Assembly: GCA_018712565.1 (NCBI GenBank)
Contig: DVGU01000006.1
Location: forward strand, 1 to 41,493
DNA length: 41,493 nt
Direction: 5' to 3'
Source: Candidatus Faecimonas gallistercoris
GTDB taxonomy: Bacteria; Bacillota_I; Bacilli_A; RF39; UBA660
The notes beneath the pieces are model-generated. The model was not told where the DNA came from. It ran no database searches and was given only the letters and a program-made list of their open reading frames with translations. How positions within the stretch are numbered: position 1 is the first letter of the stretch; every line of letters begins with the position of its first letter. Both the position numbers and the translations under genes were made by a program. Of the stretch, positions 14,480 to 26,056 are shown piece by piece.

Positions 14480-16159
14480 TTACACCTCTTCTGTTCTTGT
14501 TAAGGTTCTTACTTTATTATTATTTCTTTCTAATAATTCTTGTTGCTGTTGTTTTGTCTTTTCTAATTCTTCTTCTTTTACTTTTAAATCTGCTAATAAT
14601 TCATTTAAATTATTTAATAACTCCTTATATTCTGGAACATTATCAATATAATCTTTGTAGTTTTTTTCTATATTTTTAATCACTGTTTCTAGTTTACTTG
14701 ATGTTTTATGGATTAAGTTAGTGGCATCTTCTATTTTAGATATACCACGTTCTACTTCTTTACTATAATCAGTTACTTCAATAATTCTATATCGTTTCTT
14801 TTCTAGTCTAGGATTTAATAAGTTTCTCATAAATAGTAAGTAAGCAGCGGTTGCTGTTGCCATAGCTTTAGCACTTCTATTTCCAGGTATCATCATTGGT
14901 ATAGCAAGTAAGTTTAATAATCGCTTACTTTGTTTATTCATCATTTTAAAATTATAAGTTACTCTTTCTGTTTCTGTGACTGAATTACTTATTTTTTCTT
15001 CTAAATCTTTTAATATTGCATCTTGTTCATATTGTAGTGCTATTAATTGATTATTAAAGTTTTCGTAATCATAGAATGATTCTTTTAAGGAAGTAAATTT
15101 TTCTTCATCTATTTCTAAATCATCTTTTTTCTTGTCTACTTTGTTATTTAATTTATTGGTTTCAGTTTCTACTTGTTCTAGTTTCTCTGAAATTAAAATA
15201 TATAGATCAGAATCTTTTATTTCTTCTACCACATTTTTATTTTTAAATTCTTCTATATAACTATCTACTAAATATTGTACATAAGCTTCATTTTCTAAAG
15301 ACTTTATTTCTGTTTTTAACTTATCTTTTAACTGTTCCATTTTTTTAATCATTATACTTAACTGATATAAAATATTTTCTGCTATTTTTGATTCGTAGAT
15401 ATCGTTTGTTTGTTGGTTTAAGACATTATATTCATAGATTAATTGTTTTAAGTCTTGACGAATATCTTTTAGTTTTGATTCATATTTTTTTATTATTTCT
15501 TGTTCTTGAAAACGTTCAAGTTGTTTATTTATTCCTACTTTTTTCGTAGTTATATCGATACTAGGTAGTGGTATTTTGGTTTGAGATTTCTTTTTTACTT
15601 CTACTTTATTTTCTTGGTTTGGTACTTTGTTTTCTTTTTTTTCTGCGATAGACTTTTTTTTCGTTATCGTTTCTTTTATTTCTACTTTTTTGTCTGGAAA
15701 TATCTTTTCTATTGGTTTTTCTGTTTTAATGAAGTTTGGAGCTTCCGTTATTTCGATTTCTTGTGGTATTTTTATTTCTTTTCCATCAATTGTCTTTGGA
15801 AGTTGTTTTTTCGTATCATATACTTGATTATTTTCTATTAATACAGAAGTTTCGTTTAGTTCTAGTTTTCCTTGATTGTGAAGAGTTTCTGTTTGTAGTT
15901 CTTTTGATGCTTGATAATCTGTTTTCTTTTCATCTCTAATATTTAATAAAGTCTCCATAGTAGTGCCAGCGATTGCTATTGGCATAGCAATGAAAAAAGA
16001 AGCTAGCTCGATCGTTCTTACTTCTTTTTCTAACTTTTTTAGTCTCATTTGTTTTTTCTTTTTATAAAATTCCTTAAGTTTCTTTTTATTTTCAGAAGTG
16101 ATGATGATTGTTCTTTTTCTATCTCTTCTACCACCTTTTGCACCGATTGCTTCATTCAT
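14480..16159 (-). CDS. Coiled-coil, membrane-associated hypothetical protein in the dcw block
   Basis: Long heptad/charged regions; hydrophobic segments IELASFFIAMPIAIAGTTM and LLNLLAIPMMIPGNRSAKAMATATAAYLLFM. Confidence 0.65.
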   Translation of the reverse strand: MNEAIGAKGGRRDRKRTIIITSENKKKLKEFYKKKKQMRLKKLEKEVRTIELASFFIAMPIAIAGTTMETLLNIRDEKKTDYQASKELQTETLHNQGKLELNETSVLIENNQVYDTKKQLPKTIDGKEIKIPQEIEITEAPNFIKTEKPIEKIFPDKKVEIKETITKKKSIAEKKENKVPNQENKVEVKKKSQTKIPLPSIDITTKKVGINKQLERFQEQEIIKKYESKLKDIRQDLKQLIYEYNVLNQQTNDIYESKIAENILYQLSIMIKKMEQLKDKLKTEIKSLENEAYVQYLVDSYIEEFKNKNVVEEIKDSDLYILISEKLEQVETETNKLNNKVDKKKDDLEIDEEKFTSLKESFYDYENFNNQLIALQYEQDAILKDLEEKISNSVTETERVTYNFKMMNKQSKRLLNLLAIPMMIPGNRSAKAMATATAAYLLFMRNLLNPRLEKKRYRIIEVTDYSKEVERGISKIEDATNLIHKTSSKLETVIKNIEKNYKDYIDNVPEYKELLNNLNELLADLKVKEEELEKTKQQQQELLERNNNKVRTLTRTEEV

Positions 16160-16292: not shown

Positions 16293-17048
16293 TTATACTC
16301 TATCATAGCCCCACCAGTCTGGAAGTAACTCTTCTAATTTAATTATCTCTTTCGTTTTATCATCTTTTAGTATTTCAATATTCTTACTATTTTTATCTAG
16401 CTGCATCAAATATTCTCGACATGCTCCACAAGGTGATCCTACTTTTCCTTTTGAATCAACACATACAAGTTTTGAAATTTCATTTTCTCCGTTAGTAATC
16501 ATATTTGCTATTGCATTTCTTTCACCACACATACCTAATGTGGAAGCTGTGTCTATACATACTCCAGTATAAATATTATGATTCTTTGTTAGAATCGCTG
16601 CTCCGACTTGTCCTCCACTAATCATTCCAGATATATTTCTTGGCTTTCTAATACTCTTGGCCATTTCATATAATTCATCCCATACTGTATTTTGGCTATA
16701 TAAATATTGTATGTGAATTGCATATACTCCATTCTTATTAATAGCCTCTTCGTATCCATCTAATTTACATACATTTTTGATTGCTTCTTTTTTATCGTTA
16801 GTTGATGATGTTGTATACCTTGTTCCCTCCATAGTAAATAACTCTTCTAGTGAAGTATAATGGGTTACTTCTTTAACTTTGGCATAGAATTTTCCTAAAT
16901 TATTACTTGTAAATTCTATTACATCATTTTCTTTTAGCGTACTATAATTGTGTTTACCATTTTCTTTATTTGCTCTAATTTCTACTCTTTTCGTATTGTT
17001 TTTGATAGCTAGAGCTGCCCTATCATTTATATTTAATTTCATTATCAT
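16293..17048 (-). CDS. ASCH-like domain fused to cytidine deaminase (CDA superfamily)
   Basis: N-term NNTKRVEIR...LKENDVIEFTS...VTHYTSLEELFTMEG (ASCH-like); C-term MCGERNAI and SPCGACREYL zinc motifs of CDA. Confidence 0.85.
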   Translation of the reverse strand: MIMKLNINDRAALAIKNNTKRVEIRANKENGKHNYSTLKENDVIEFTSNNLGKFYAKVKEVTHYTSLEELFTMEGTRYTTSSTNDKKEAIKNVCKLDGYEEAINKNGVYAIHIQYLYSQNTVWDELYEMAKSIRKPRNISGMISGGQVGAAILTKNHNIYTGVCIDTASTLGMCGERNAIANMITNGENEISKLVCVDSKGKVGSPCGACREYLMQLDKNSKNIEILKDDKTKEIIKLEELLPDWWGYDRV

Positions 17049-17083
17049 AGTTAGTCTCCTTATTCTTTATATAAAATATAAAA

Positions 17084-17104
17084 AATTCTGCGTAACGCAG
17101 AATT
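17084..17104 (-). terminator. Leader terminator upstream of ASCH-deaminase gene
   Basis: AATTCTGCG-TTA-CGCAGAATT then TTTTATATTTT on the minus strand. Confidence 0.88.
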
Positions 17105-17123
17105 AACCATTATAACTTTTTTT

Positions 17124-17189
17124 CTATAAAGTATATCCCCTGGGTATTGTGATTAATTCTGCATTGTTTTTCAATTGTAAATTTTTCAT
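17124..17189 (-). CDS. Putative 21-aa leader peptide MKNLQLKNNAELITIPRGYTL
   Basis: ATG preceded by AAGGAAGGGTGGTGATTAATT; ends in TAG 20 nt upstream of the terminator stem. Confidence 0.65.
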   Translation of the reverse strand: MKNLQLKNNAELITIPRGYTL

Positions 17190-17227
17190 AATTAATCACC
17201 ACCCTTCCTTAAATAAATTATACTAAT

Positions 17228-17256
17228 AATATATTATGAATACTTTCATTTGTCAA
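17228..17256 (-). promoter_or_regulatory. Sigma70/SigA-type promoter for leader/ASCH-deaminase unit
   Basis: TTGACA (17251-17256), 17-nt spacer, TATATT (17228-17233) on the minus strand. Confidence 0.8.
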
Positions 17257-17264
17257 TTTGTATC

Positions 17265-18137
17265 TTATTCTAGCAAAAGTCTGATTGTTCCTTGTTCTTC
17301 TAACTTTTCTCCTGCTTCTGGGGACTGGGCTACTACTTTTTTACCGTTTCCTGAATATTCAATGGTAAATTTGTCTAATTTTTCTTTTGCTTCTTCTACT
17401 GATTTTCCTACTACATTTGGTACTTTGTAGGTAGGAATGTCACTCCACTCTAAATCTTTAGCCATTTCTTTATCTTGCTTTTCTATCTCTAGAGCATCAA
17501 TAATATCTAATAGAATTCTTCTGGCAATTGGAGTTGTTGTATAACTGGATAGTAAGGCTGTATTTTTAGGATTGTCAATCGCTAGATATAGTACAGCTTG
17601 AGGATCATTTGATGGAACTACTGCCATAAAGGACATGATATAGTTACCTACTAAGTAGACTCCATTTTGAACTTTTTGAGCTGTTCCTGTTTTTCCTCCA
17701 ATTCTATATCCTTCAATATACGCACTTTTTCCTCCACCTTTTGCTACTACACTTTCTAGGGCATGTCTCATAATTCTAGATGTTTTTTTACTTATTACTT
17801 TTCTTATTTTTTTCTTTTTCATTTTTTGGATAATACTATTGGTTTCTTTCTCAGAAATACTTTTTACAATATATGGTTCGTATAATGTTCCTCCATTCAC
17901 TACTGCTGATACTGCCGCTACCTGTTGAATAGGAGTAACACTTACTCCTTGACCAAAGGCTGTTGTTGCTAGTTCTACATTTCCTACTTGATTTAGATTA
18001 AATATAATTCCTTTTCCTTCTCCATTTAAATCTATTCCTGTTTGTTGTCCAAAACCAAACTTATCAATATAACTAAATAAGGTTTGTTTTCCTAAAAGTT
18101 GTCCCATTTTTACAAAGCCAGGGTTGCTTTGTGTCAA
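17265..18137 (-). pseudogene. C-terminal fragment of class B penicillin-binding protein (PBP2B/FtsI/SpoVD type) with PASTA domain, interrupted by the mobile element
   Basis: TQSNPGFVKMGQLLGKQTLFSYIDKFGFGQQTGIDLNGEGKG, KTGTAQK motif, C-terminal PASTA (YKVPNVVGKSVEEAKEKL...). No N-terminal domain or SxxK motif; no RBS before the GTG at 18140. Confidence 0.88.
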
Positions 18138-19818
18138 CACAGCAACACTTTAGAGCCGAAGTTTGCCTTGCACAAGCAAGGTTTTTGGCTGTCAAACTTT
18201 TAATTTGGTTATTTTCATTCATATCTAAATCTATATCAATATCTGGGGTATTAAAATCGTAATATATTTTTAACTTAATATGTTTACGATCACCATTAAC
18301 TTTTTCAACTTCTACTTTTTCAACTAATAAATTTACTAGGTATGCTAAATTTTCCTTTATATCTAATTTTGAATTTAGACTAGTTTCAATAAGTTCTAAT
18401 TTCTTCTTTAACCGTTCTTCCTCAAGATTATTCTTTGATGTTTCACTCAATTGTTTTTGTAGGTTAAATAACTCAACATTTAATTTGTCATTTCTAGTTT
18501 TAAATTCATAGTCATCAATAATACCTTTAATGCTTAAATCTAATAATTTATCTTTTTGCTTTTCAATAACAAGTATTTGTTTATTTATTTCTTCAACATC
18601 TAAATCTGATGTATGATTTTCTATAATATTTTTATATTCTTTCAAAACTAATGAAACATATTGCTTTTTGTTTTTTATAAAGTCAGAAAATAAATCTATA
18701 AATATTTTATCTAAATAAGATTCTTTTATATTAGGTGATGCACATTTTGAAACACCAGAAACTTTATAAGTTCTACAAGCCCATACTGGATTATTTGCTC
18801 TGTTAGAGCCACCATTTCTAATAAAAACTGCACCACAGTCCTTGCAATATAATTTACAAGAATATTTATATTTTTTAATATGTTCTTCTGTATTTAATAT
18901 ATGCCTAGATGGTAATTTTTTTCTTTTTTCGTGTAACAGATTTGCTTTATCCCATAATTCTTCTGATACTATTGCTGGAATACGATCATCTTTATAAATA
19001 ATTTGCTTTTCTTTAGGTACTTTTCTTTTTTTATGAGTTTTGTAATCTTCAACTTCGGTAAGTTTAGCAGTATAATAACCTTTATATCTAGGGTTAGTTA
19101 AAAATTTTGCTAAAGTTGTTTGTGAATATGGTTCGCCTTTAGAGTTTAAATATCCCATTTTGGCTAATTCTAATCCAATTTTTTTAAGCCCCATATTACC
19201 ACTAGCATAAGTAGTAAATAAATATTCTATAATTGGGGCTTCTTTTGGATTTATTTCGTATCTACCATTTTTCTTGAAATAACCAGTTAGATTACCACCA
19301 ATTAGTTTACCATCCTTGATCATTCTGTTTATACCGAATTTAACTCTTTCAGATAGTTTTCGCACCTCATCTTGGGCAAGGCTTGACATAATAGTAAGTC
19401 TAAATTCTGAATCTTCTTGAATAGTATTTAAGTTATCTGATAGGAAATAAACAATTACACCATTTTTTAATAGGTATTCAGTATATTTAATGCTATCAAC
19501 GGTATTTCTTGAAAATCTGGATATTTCTTTTGTCAGTATTAAATCAACTTTTCCAATAGTAGCATCTTCTATCATTTTTAAAAAGGAATCACGATTTTTT
19601 ACTGCAGTACCAGAAATACCCTCATCGATATATCCACGAGTTAATGTCCAGTTTTTGTTTTCCATAATCATTTCTTCAAAATACTTTTGCTGATTTTCTA
19701 ATGAATTTAACTGATCATCTTTATCAGTAGATACACGAGCATAATATCCAACTCTTAAATTCATATCATAAATTGTTTTTCCTTTTCGCAAATCTTCTCT
19801 TGCTTTTTTAATATCCAT
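18073..19818 (-). CDS. Large serine recombinase (site-specific integrase); ORF reads across the junction
   Basis: YARVSTDKDDQLNSLENQ...GYIDEGISGTAVKNRDSF...ILTKEISRFSRN resolvase domain, Recombinase domain, zinc ribbon (CKDCGAVF...CRTY), coiled coil. Confidence 0.95.
   Translation of the reverse strand: MDIKKAREDLRKGKTIYDMNLRVGYYARVSTDKDDQLNSLENQQKYFEEMIMENKNWTLTRGYIDEGISGTAVKNRDSFLKMIEDATIGKVDLILTKEISRFSRNTVDSIKYTEYLLKNGVIVYFLSDNLNTIQEDSEFRLTIMSSLAQDEVRKLSERVKFGINRMIKDGKLIGGNLTGYFKKNGRYEINPKEAPIIEYLFTTYASGNMGLKKIGLELAKMGYLNSKGEPYSQTTLAKFLTNPRYKGYYTAKLTEVEDYKTHKKRKVPKEKQIIYKDDRIPAIVSEELWDKANLLHEKRKKLPSRHILNTEEHIKKYKYSCKLYCKDCGAVFIRNGGSNRANNPVWACRTYKVSGVSKCASPNIKESYLDKIFIDLFSDFIKNKKQYVSLVLKEYKNIIENHTSDLDVEEINKQILVIEKQKDKLLDLSIKGIIDDYEFKTRNDKLNVELFNLQKQLSETSKNNLEEERLKKKLELIETSLNSKLDIKENLAYLVNLLVEKVEVEKVNGDRKHIKLKIYYDFNTPDIDIDLDMNENNQIKSLTAKNLACARQTSALKCCCVDTKQPWLCKNGTTFRKTNLI
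18130..18141. other. Candidate attachment-site core (element/chromosome junction)
   Basis: TGTGT-CA-ACACA: 5-bp arms around a non-palindromic 2-bp centre, where PBP homology starts; within a wider GTTGC...GCAAC pair (18123-18146). Confidence 0.6.
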
Positions 19819-24442: not shown

Positions 24443-25942
24443 TTATTTTTTTGTTAAACCATTTCGTGTTAGTTCATATAAATTGTCTATTACTTCATTA
24501 ATGTATTTTCGATCATGAGATACACTTATAATTGTTCCATTATATTCACTTAATACTTTTCTAATAATTGGATTAGATAAGGGACTAACATTTCTTGTAG
24601 GTTCATCAAGTATTAAAACGTTGCATTTTTCTAATACTAACTTAACAAGAAATAACTTTGCTTTTGTTCCGTTACTTAAATCTTTTATTTTACTAACCAT
24701 TTCTTCTTTCGTAAATTTCATATTACCTAAAAGGATTCTTGCTTTTGTAATTTCCTCTTTATTCCCATATGGTGAAAGAAAATCTAATACATATTCATAA
24801 CTATTTAGAATATCATCATATGTTTGGGGCATATATCCTACTTTAATATCAGTCCTATTTTCTAATTCATTATAAATTATTTTTATTAATGTCGATTTTC
24901 CTACACCATTTTTTCCAATAATACATAGATGTACATTTCCTATTACTTCCAATTTTATATTTTTAGATAAAGTTTTATCATGTACTTTTAACTCATCTAT
25001 ATTTAGAGTAATTATTTTTTTGGTTTTTGGGACCTCAATATTTTCAAAGAAAAAATTAATGCTTTCTTCCACATCAGGAAATTTAGTCAATTCAGTATTA
25101 TCCATTTTTCTTTCTTGCGACTTTAAAGAATGCATTTTCTTTTTTAAAAGTTTAGCACCATGTGGGTCACTTCTTGAAATTGTATTTTGCTGATATTCAA
25201 CTTTTTGCATTATTCTTTGCAGTTTTTCATGTTGCTTGGTAAATTCTCTTTTTTCAGTTCTTGCGACTTGTGTTTGCTTTTCTATTTTTCTAATTCTTTG
25301 CTCAACATATGTATCGTAATCAATTTTTAATAATGTGTGTCTACATTCAGTTTTCTTTTTTATTTGCTCTAAATGAAGAATCATATTAGCTGTATTAGAT
25401 AATAGTGTTTCATCATGAGAAACATACATAATTGGTTTACTTGTACTATTAATAAATTTTTCTAACCACTCTAATGTTTCGATATCTAAATCGTTAGTAG
25501 GTTCATCTAAAAATAAAATATCATATTCATTTAATAATAATTTTAAGATACTAATTTTTACTTTTTCACCACCAGATAATGTATTTATTGTTTGCTCTAA
25601 TATTTCATCACTTAAATTAATTGAATCTAAATTTTTATAAAAATTATTAATTTTATTATAATAGTCTCTTTCATCTATAAATAAAAAATTATAAACTTTT
25701 TTATTTAAATCTTCTTCATTTATAGATTGCTCTAAATAACCTATCCTACTGCCTTTAAAATTAATATTTCCACTTAATTCTACATATTTACATATTCCTA
25801 GAATAGATTTTAATAAAGTTGATTTTCCATTTCCTTCTTCACCTATAATTGCCAATTTATCATTATTATTTAATACTAAGTTTAAATTTTTAATTAAATA
25901 TCTACCATTAATAGATATACTTAAATCTTTTATTTCTAACAT
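24443..25942 (-). CDS. ABC-F family ATPase, ribosomal-protection (antibiotic resistance) type candidate
   Basis: Two ABC domains (GEEGNGKST/LSGGEKVKI/LFLDEPTNDLD; GKNGVGKST/LSNGTKAKLFLVK/LILDEPTRNVSPLS), long charged interdomain linker, no TM helices. Confidence 0.88.
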   Translation of the reverse strand: MLEIKDLSISINGRYLIKNLNLVLNNNDKLAIIGEEGNGKSTLLKSILGICKYVELSGNINFKGSRIGYLEQSINEEDLNKKVYNFLFIDERDYYNKINNFYKNLDSINLSDEILEQTINTLSGGEKVKISILKLLLNEYDILFLDEPTNDLDIETLEWLEKFINSTSKPIMYVSHDETLLSNTANMILHLEQIKKKTECRHTLLKIDYDTYVEQRIRKIEKQTQVARTEKREFTKQHEKLQRIMQKVEYQQNTISRSDPHGAKLLKKKMHSLKSQERKMDNTELTKFPDVEESINFFFENIEVPKTKKIITLNIDELKVHDKTLSKNIKLEVIGNVHLCIIGKNGVGKSTLIKIIYNELENRTDIKVGYMPQTYDDILNSYEYVLDFLSPYGNKEEITKARILLGNMKFTKEEMVSKIKDLSNGTKAKLFLVKLVLEKCNVLILDEPTRNVSPLSNPIIRKVLSEYNGTIISVSHDRKYINEVIDNLYELTRNGLTKK

Positions 25943-25983
25943 ATTATGCCTCCTTTTTGTTCGGCATAATCAAAGTTTATGCC
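25943..25983 (-). promoter_or_regulatory. Three-segment RNA switch overlapping ABC-F RBS
   Basis: Minus strand GGCATAA (25977-25983), TTATGCC (25963-25969), GGCATAAT (25943-25950) overlapping AAGGAGGCATAATATG. Confidence 0.7.
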
Positions 25984-25987
25984 TGAC

Positions 25988-26008
25988 TCATATCATTAAT
26001 ATTCTCAT
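25988..26008 (-). CDS. Putative leader peptide MRILMI upstream of ABC-F gene
   Basis: GAGAGGTGATAAC then ATG AGA ATA TTA ATG ATA TGA; immediately upstream of the switch segments. Confidence 0.6.
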   Translation of the reverse strand: MRILMI

Positions 26009-26056
26009 GTTATCACCTCTCTAAAAATTACTATTTTTTGCTTTGCTTACATTTAT

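Follow-up and report, generated by a model that had tools for sequence, protein, structure and literature searches.

A predicted ribosome-mediated attenuator ahead of an ASCH-cytidine deaminase gene in uncultured gut Bacilli

The fusion gene and its leader

The minus strand of the window, by which we mean the whole 41,493-nt stretch of Candidatus Faecimonas gallistercoris DNA analysed here, carries a gene for an ASCH-cytidine deaminase fusion, preceded by a short leader with a promoter, a small ORF and an intrinsic terminator (Table 1). A first-pass annotation had read a promoter, an RBS, a 21-codon ORF, a 9-bp terminator and the fusion gene from the letters, and each element was found where it had been placed. 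The promoter begins 9 nt past the stop codon of an upstream PBP gene and is the top promoter-like site of the 3-kb region (11/12 matches), in which the number of such sites is not above shuffles (13 vs a mean of 13.8). By eye, a TTTACA...TATATT-type sequence also lies 5' of most homologous leaders.

Table 1. Features of the leader and fusion gene, in the order of transcription
Feature	Position	Strand	Sequence or detail	Basis
Promoter	TTGACA 17256-17251; TATATT 17233-17228	minus	17-nt spacer	sequence, promoter scan
RBS of leader ORF	immediately 5' of segment 1	minus	core AAGGAAG	
Segment 1 (anti-antiterminator arm)	17204-17190	minus	GGGUGGUGAUUAAUU (= GGGTGGTGATTAATT)	MFE pairing
Leader ORF	17189..17124	minus	21 codons, MKNLQLKNNAELITIPRGYTL, stop TAG	sequence
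Segment 2 (shared arm)	17165-17142	minus		MFE, alignment
Segment 3 (antiterminator 3' arm)	17108-17094	minus	GGTTAATTCTGCGTT	alignment
Intrinsic terminator	17104-17084	minus	AATTCTGCG-TTA-CGCAGAATT, then T run	sequence, alignment
ASCH-cytidine deaminase fusion gene	16293..17048	minus	251 aa; RBS AAGGAG just 5'	PF00383, AF2, Foldseek

The C-terminal half of the fusion is a zinc cytidine deaminase (PF00383, 3.7e-8). Its zinc ligands (C174, C207 and C210) and catalytic E176 are invariant among 34 sequences (alignment A2), as are the motifs C174-x-E176 and P206-C207-G-A-C210. In the AF2 model of the fusion (pLDDT 92.1), the N-terminal domain has an ASCH fold (Foldseek match PH0355, 2z0t, target TM 0.89-0.91 over ~110 residues). 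The ASCH label of the first pass is therefore clear by structure, but weak by sequence, since the N-terminal 115 residues score below the Pfam gathering cut-off for ASCH (E = 0.0068, 17.5 bits vs 21.2). No paper emerged from a literature search for the ASCH domain together with cytidine deaminase. The window also encodes, between the fusion gene and mraY, a 559-aa coiled-coil-like protein (14480-16159, minus) that matches nothing in Pfam, NCBIfam or PADLOC.

Three segments of the leader RNA can pair in alternative ways. Segment 1, which spans the spacer from the AAGGAAG core to the leader start codon, pairs with AAUUAAUCAC-AA-UACCC (17158-17142) within the leader ORF in a helix that is part of the MFE structure. 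Because its partner lies in these codons, segment 1 competes for them with the antiterminator, in which codons 9-13 (17165-17151) pair with segment 3 over 15 contiguous positions, two of them G-U; segment 2 is thus shared between the two helices. Segment 3 shares bases with the 5' arm of the terminator, a 9-bp stem with a 3-nt loop and a U tract, and by folding and alignment the antiterminator and the terminator upstream of the deaminase gene are mutually exclusive. The 15-position pairing and this exclusion had already been proposed and proved exact; what had been overlooked is the third segment, the leader RBS/start region, which would set the default. The RNA of 17040-17222, for which a folding check had been suggested, has an MFE of -32.3 kcal/mol and is stabler than all 200 shuffles (z = -3.0). 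No Rfam family matched at gathering score anywhere in the window.

Conservation, covariation and a thermodynamic switch

A scan of 85,462 species genomes returned 28 close homologues of the fusion (72-87% identity) in uncultured Bacilli, mostly from MAGs whose names suggest gut or faecal sources. The leader ORF is kept at 24 of these 28 loci, and terminator pairing is retained at 22 of the 24. The leader consensus begins GAAAGGAGTGTGATTAAG-ATG AAA AAT TTA CAA GTT ATT AAT AAT GCA GAA TTA ATC ACT ACT CCT and continues 3' with ... TAG ... TTAATTCTGCATTATGCAGAATTTTTTT. Had homologues failed to conserve either the leader ORF or the alternative pairing, this would have refuted the first-pass proposal; both are kept.

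Both mutually exclusive helices also show two-sided compensatory changes across homologous leaders. Among 23 aligned leaders, 98.6% of cells are paired in the 12-bp core of the antiterminator and three pairs are changed on both sides, a level reached by 1/500 shuffles; these two-sided changes rest on few sequences (3 pairs, 3 cells). In the 8-bp core of the terminator, 97.3% of cells are paired and two pairs are changed on both sides (3/500 shuffles as high). In the anti-antiterminator core, GTGATTAA x TTAATCAC, 99.5% of cells are paired across the 23 leaders; variation in this 1:2 helix is G-U only, with no two-sided changes. These counts exclude the extended alignment A3, in which the leaders of loci L171 and L172 are misaligned. 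Compensatory sets can be read directly in L022 (AGGATT/AATCCT/AGGATT) and in L082 and L114 (ACAG/CTGT/ACAG), segments 2, 3 and 4 changing jointly in L022 and L082; L018 shows compensatory changes too, as does L118 by eye. At L172 the RNA segment is retained and read in another frame (VMRKLIT vs NAELIT), so that it is the RNA rather than the downstream peptide that is conserved there. A weak R1 match in L032 was discarded, as it lies on the opposite strand and away from the gene.

We then placed a ribosome codon by codon on the leader, masking the bases from 14 nt before to 16 nt after the first P-site base. Pairing across the placed ribosome was forbidden in the final simulation, and folding was computed at equilibrium, ignoring co-transcriptional kinetics. 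In silico, the terminator of the window leader had a probability of 0.94 without a ribosome and of 0.00 with a ribosome at codons 1-4, where the antiterminator reached ~1; the terminator returned at codon 5 (0.82) and stayed at or above 0.91 from codon 6 onward. The other ASCH-deaminase leaders simulated (L014 included, L001 and L026 left out) showed the same switch with its edge at codon 2-5, the antiterminator of ASCH-CDA-type leaders having a probability of ~1 at codons 1-3/4 and the terminator one of ~0.7-0.98 elsewhere. The antiterminator of L082 was favoured at codons 1-2 only, and leaders with a longer 5' part (L022, L120, L121) switched over codons 1-8 to 1-10. L001 and L026 have poor terminators or pairings, L173 had no default terminator in silico, and L177 switched only partially. 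Codon-shuffled leaders switched in 5-30/1000 cases (0.5-3%); for the window leader, 6/1000 codon-shuffled and 4/1000 base-shuffled controls did so, as scored by MFE. An apparent second stall window at codons 17-20, seen when pairs across the ribosome were allowed, vanished once these were forbidden. As a ribosome at codons 1-4 flips the fold, the design appears to sense ribosomes that stay at the beginning of the ORF. The earlier idea of ribosome-sensing attenuation is thus supported by conservation and covariation, with a predicted trigger at codons 1-4 and not a stall deep in the peptide.

Variants, sibling leaders and mobile context

The switch is lost at some loci that keep the gene. At L002, the terminator is deleted between two 8-bp direct GCAGAATT repeats (L002:2077-2160) and the leader is fused in frame to the otherwise intact gene, which likely makes this locus a natural constitutive variant; by eye, an IS110-like transposase gene lies close upstream. 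L001 retains the ORF with a degenerate terminator, and the leader is absent from L013, L024 and L027. Loss of the switch with retention of the gene is expected if expression has been made constant. At L114, L171 and L173 the reverse is seen, with the leader kept and the deaminase gene partly lost.

Searching with a covariance model of the leader, we recovered siblings of the same architecture within the host's family. They precede the genes of a GNAT acetyltransferase at L118 and an AAA-type kinase at L120; a third, at L121, stands before that of an APH(2'')-Ia/If/Ih-like kinase, whose 213.8 bits fall short of the curated cut-off of 475. The segments of L120 and L121 have other sequences (GGGTTAATCGCAC; terminator CTCTCTA...TAGAG) and the same exclusions. 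By pattern search, the leader also heads an ABC-F operon (L177), the first 220 aa of whose ABC-F are 84% identical to an ABC-F encoded in the window. Between this SGLIAL-type leader and the ABC-F gene lies a 212-aa gene (L177:768-1403, minus) with only a sub-threshold Pfam match (BrxL_ATPase, 0.0016). The APH(2'')-like and ABC-F genes of these sibling operons suggest that the gene downstream of the leader confers resistance.

The pattern RBS-GTGATTAA-ATG-TTAAT was matched in 12/243 genomes of the family and in none with the reversed control. A looser pattern without the GGAG RBS, run over 395 genomes of the class, gave additional matches that look like chance, as reversed controls scored too, and the leader therefore appears confined to the host's family. 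The full leader pattern was not matched in viral contigs, and plasmids gave matches to the deaminase domain only, none covering 80% of the query. Upstream of 25 deaminase-only homologues in other phyla (Clostridia, Treponema and others), no obvious leader was seen by eye, so the deaminase enzyme would not always be under ribosome control. Two deaminase-only genes of the host's family have short leaders of another kind, MNILITRLYGFDHNCD and MFIITNLNRFNHICG (L086:1470-1545, minus, and L180:1501-1590, plus), with 1:2/2:3 pairing beside the gene RBS and no terminator; folding support is weak, and they are possible translational attenuators.

The next gene in many relatives encodes a GNAT-...-ASCH fusion (ASCH 1.4e-17) whose start overlaps the deaminase stop, followed in varying combination by further GNATs, a kinase or a NUDIX protein. 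Serine recombinase genes or truncated PBP or DacA genes are frequent neighbours of these loci, and a mobile, inducible drug-modification operon is the most likely reading of the arrangement. In the window, the gene of a large serine recombinase (18073-19818) runs on into a PBP gene truncated at its 5' end (17265-18140), and T4SS-like genes occupy 20163-41493; an integrative element appears to be inserted in a SpoVD/PBP-type gene. PBP genes 5' of the leader end at or near FGQGVSVTPIHLTV* at seven loci (L003, L007, L009, L010, L011, L018 and L086) and DacA genes near SANDVVVSIKQ at four (L004, L006, L012 and L025), shared ends that look as if integration had recurred at fixed sites in two cell-wall genes.

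A probable start-proximal attenuator and its possible purpose

We consider it likely that the leader is a three-state, ribosome-mediated transcription attenuator of an inducible, mobile drug-modification operon, acting close to the start codon in the manner of vmlR and vga. By default, with no ribosome on the leader or with ribosomes past codon 4-5, the RBS/start region would pair with leader codons 10-16, or a ribosome would cover those codons; segment 3 would be left free, the terminator would form and transcription would halt before the deaminase gene. Under induction, a ribosome held between the start codon and about codon 4 would cover the RBS/start region and leave codons 9-13 exposed to pair with segment 3, so that no terminator would form and the deaminase gene would be transcribed. 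We infer that the leader is translated and that termination and read-through actually take place. Because switching is confined to the first codons, the predicted trigger is slow initiation or early elongation, a state that several ribosome-targeting antibiotics cause.

The closest counterpart is vmlR of B. subtilis, in which ribosomes arrested during initiation on a uORF (MIN) induce through an anti-antiterminator, antiterminator and terminator, lincosamides and pleuromutilins being reported to act through ribosomes held at the uORF start (PMC9226507). Both systems combine an anti-antiterminator that takes in the uORF, an antiterminator and an intrinsic terminator, and vmlR further has an SD-sequestering SL-4 and a NusG pause (PMC9226507). 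The ORF here has 21 codons in place of three, segment 2 lies inside coding codons, and the RNA sequences differ. Moreover, vmlR controls an antibiotic-resistance gene for an ABC-F, whereas the genes here are mainly for small-molecule-modifying enzymes, though one sibling leader heads an ABC-F operon.

Other systems share parts of this logic. Listeria rli80-hflXr likewise has a short leader ORF with an anti-antiterminator, antiterminator and terminator, and mutation of its start codon abolishes induction; it carries an RLR motif and senses erythromycin/lincomycin, whereas our leader has no RLR and a predicted stall at codons 1-4 (PMC6310831). On the E. coli toiL uORF the trigger is start-codon stalling by tetracycline or retapamulin, akin to the start-proximal stall predicted here, but the outcome is exposure of the topAI Shine-Dalgarno, with effects on translation and Rho, where our leader would control an intrinsic terminator (PMC12121999). 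The staphylococcal vga(A) uORF, which controls an ABC-F, probably responds to drugs that halt ribosomes on its start codon (as cited in PMC12121999); its likeness to our leader is one of logic. Overall, the leader has the structural and comparative features of ribosome-mediated attenuators and, by analogy, induction by drugs is predicted. As it has these features and no Rfam match, we regard the principle as known, and the RNA family and the enzymes it controls seem not to have been described.

What the enzyme does is a separate question. If the operon modifies drugs, the deaminase would most likely deaminate a translation inhibitor of the cytosine-nucleoside type. Blasticidin-S deaminase (BSD/bsr; 2z3g, 1wn5) acts on such an inhibitor with the same zinc cytidine-deaminase fold; it lacks an ASCH domain and, at ~25% identity, matches the fusion more weakly than ordinary CDAs do. 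We infer that the fusion is a resistance enzyme. That the attenuator is real and instead governs an enzyme that works in nucleotide or RNA metabolism or repair and is induced by disturbed translation seems to us rather unlikely, though the fold invites it: the deaminase domain (target TM 0.83 to CDA) ranks ordinary CDAs, 6kw6 and 3r2n, at the top, and blasticidin-S deaminase falls below several CDAs and is the closest deaminase neither by sequence nor by fold. ASCH domains, too, probably either bind nucleic acid or act upon derivatives of cytidine, which would suit such a role. Against it, the ribose-contact motif of the family is VCIDT where B. subtilis CDA has CNIEN, so that the NxE of a housekeeping Cdd is absent. 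The distribution is also accessory, with the fusion in only G000, G002 and G015 of the genus sample, and mobile-element and GNAT/APH/ABC-F genes accompany it. By profile, the fusion scores below the TIGR01354 cut-off (76.7 vs 113.65 bits) and passes NF004064 (80.8 vs 74). Several genomes of the family have a separate ordinary CDA-like gene.

A classic amino-acid attenuator, in which a shortage of charged tRNA at codons 2-5 (Lys, Asn, Leu, Gln) would turn on a metabolic enzyme such as one for cytidine salvage, is quite improbable. Any stall at codons 1-4 would serve the same RNA logic, and codons 2-5 are well conserved among homologues, yet the leader has no run of one codon type, sibling leaders beginning MKKLEL, MIKLNN and MNYIII keep the logic, and the genes downstream (deaminase, GNATs, APH(2'')-like kinase, ABC-F) are not biosynthetic. 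Deaminases are used in defence and mobile elements adjoin the gene, so a nucleotide-depleting deaminase induced when a phage stops host translation might be imagined; we find this very improbable, as PADLOC matched neither the fusion, the GNAT-ASCH partner nor the deaminase alone, and the partners are acetyltransferases and kinases, not defence genes. Finally, a chance coincidence of a small ORF and pairing with a terminator of the PBP gene, whose stop codon lies just ~160 nt 5' of it, is excluded for practical purposes by conservation beside many different upstream genes, by covariation of the leader and by the rarity of the switch in shuffles.

Returning to the drug-modification reading, we put forward only tentatively, and with real doubt, a wider version of it: that the leader is a reusable sensor of start-blocked ribosomes, common to mobile drug-modification genes of unrelated kinds (ASCH-deaminase, GNAT-ASCH, GNATs, APH(2'')-like kinase, AAA kinase, ABC-F) within a single uncultured Bacilli lineage, and that the ASCH-deaminase/GNAT-ASCH pair may inactivate a gut cytosine-nucleoside translation inhibitor. 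Attenuators of this kind have mostly come to light singly, in Firmicutes that are in culture. The present leader family turns up in many genera of an uncultured lineage, preceding genes for several classes of enzyme, and these leaders look like antibiotic sensors of an undescribed family. Since such leaders tend to respond to the drug class of their operon, this one could be turned into a bioassay with which to look for the inhibitor and to learn what the fusion does. It also indicates what to seek 5' of other unexplained accessory enzymes.

The ABC-F gene of the window (24443-25942, minus; ribosomal protection-like) has a short leader ORF of its own, MRILMI (25942-26009, minus), followed by GGCATAA...TTATGCC...GGAGGCATAATATG. 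TTATGCC can pair with either GGCATAA, the second of which contains the gene RBS, and by eye this resembles an ermC-like translational attenuator.
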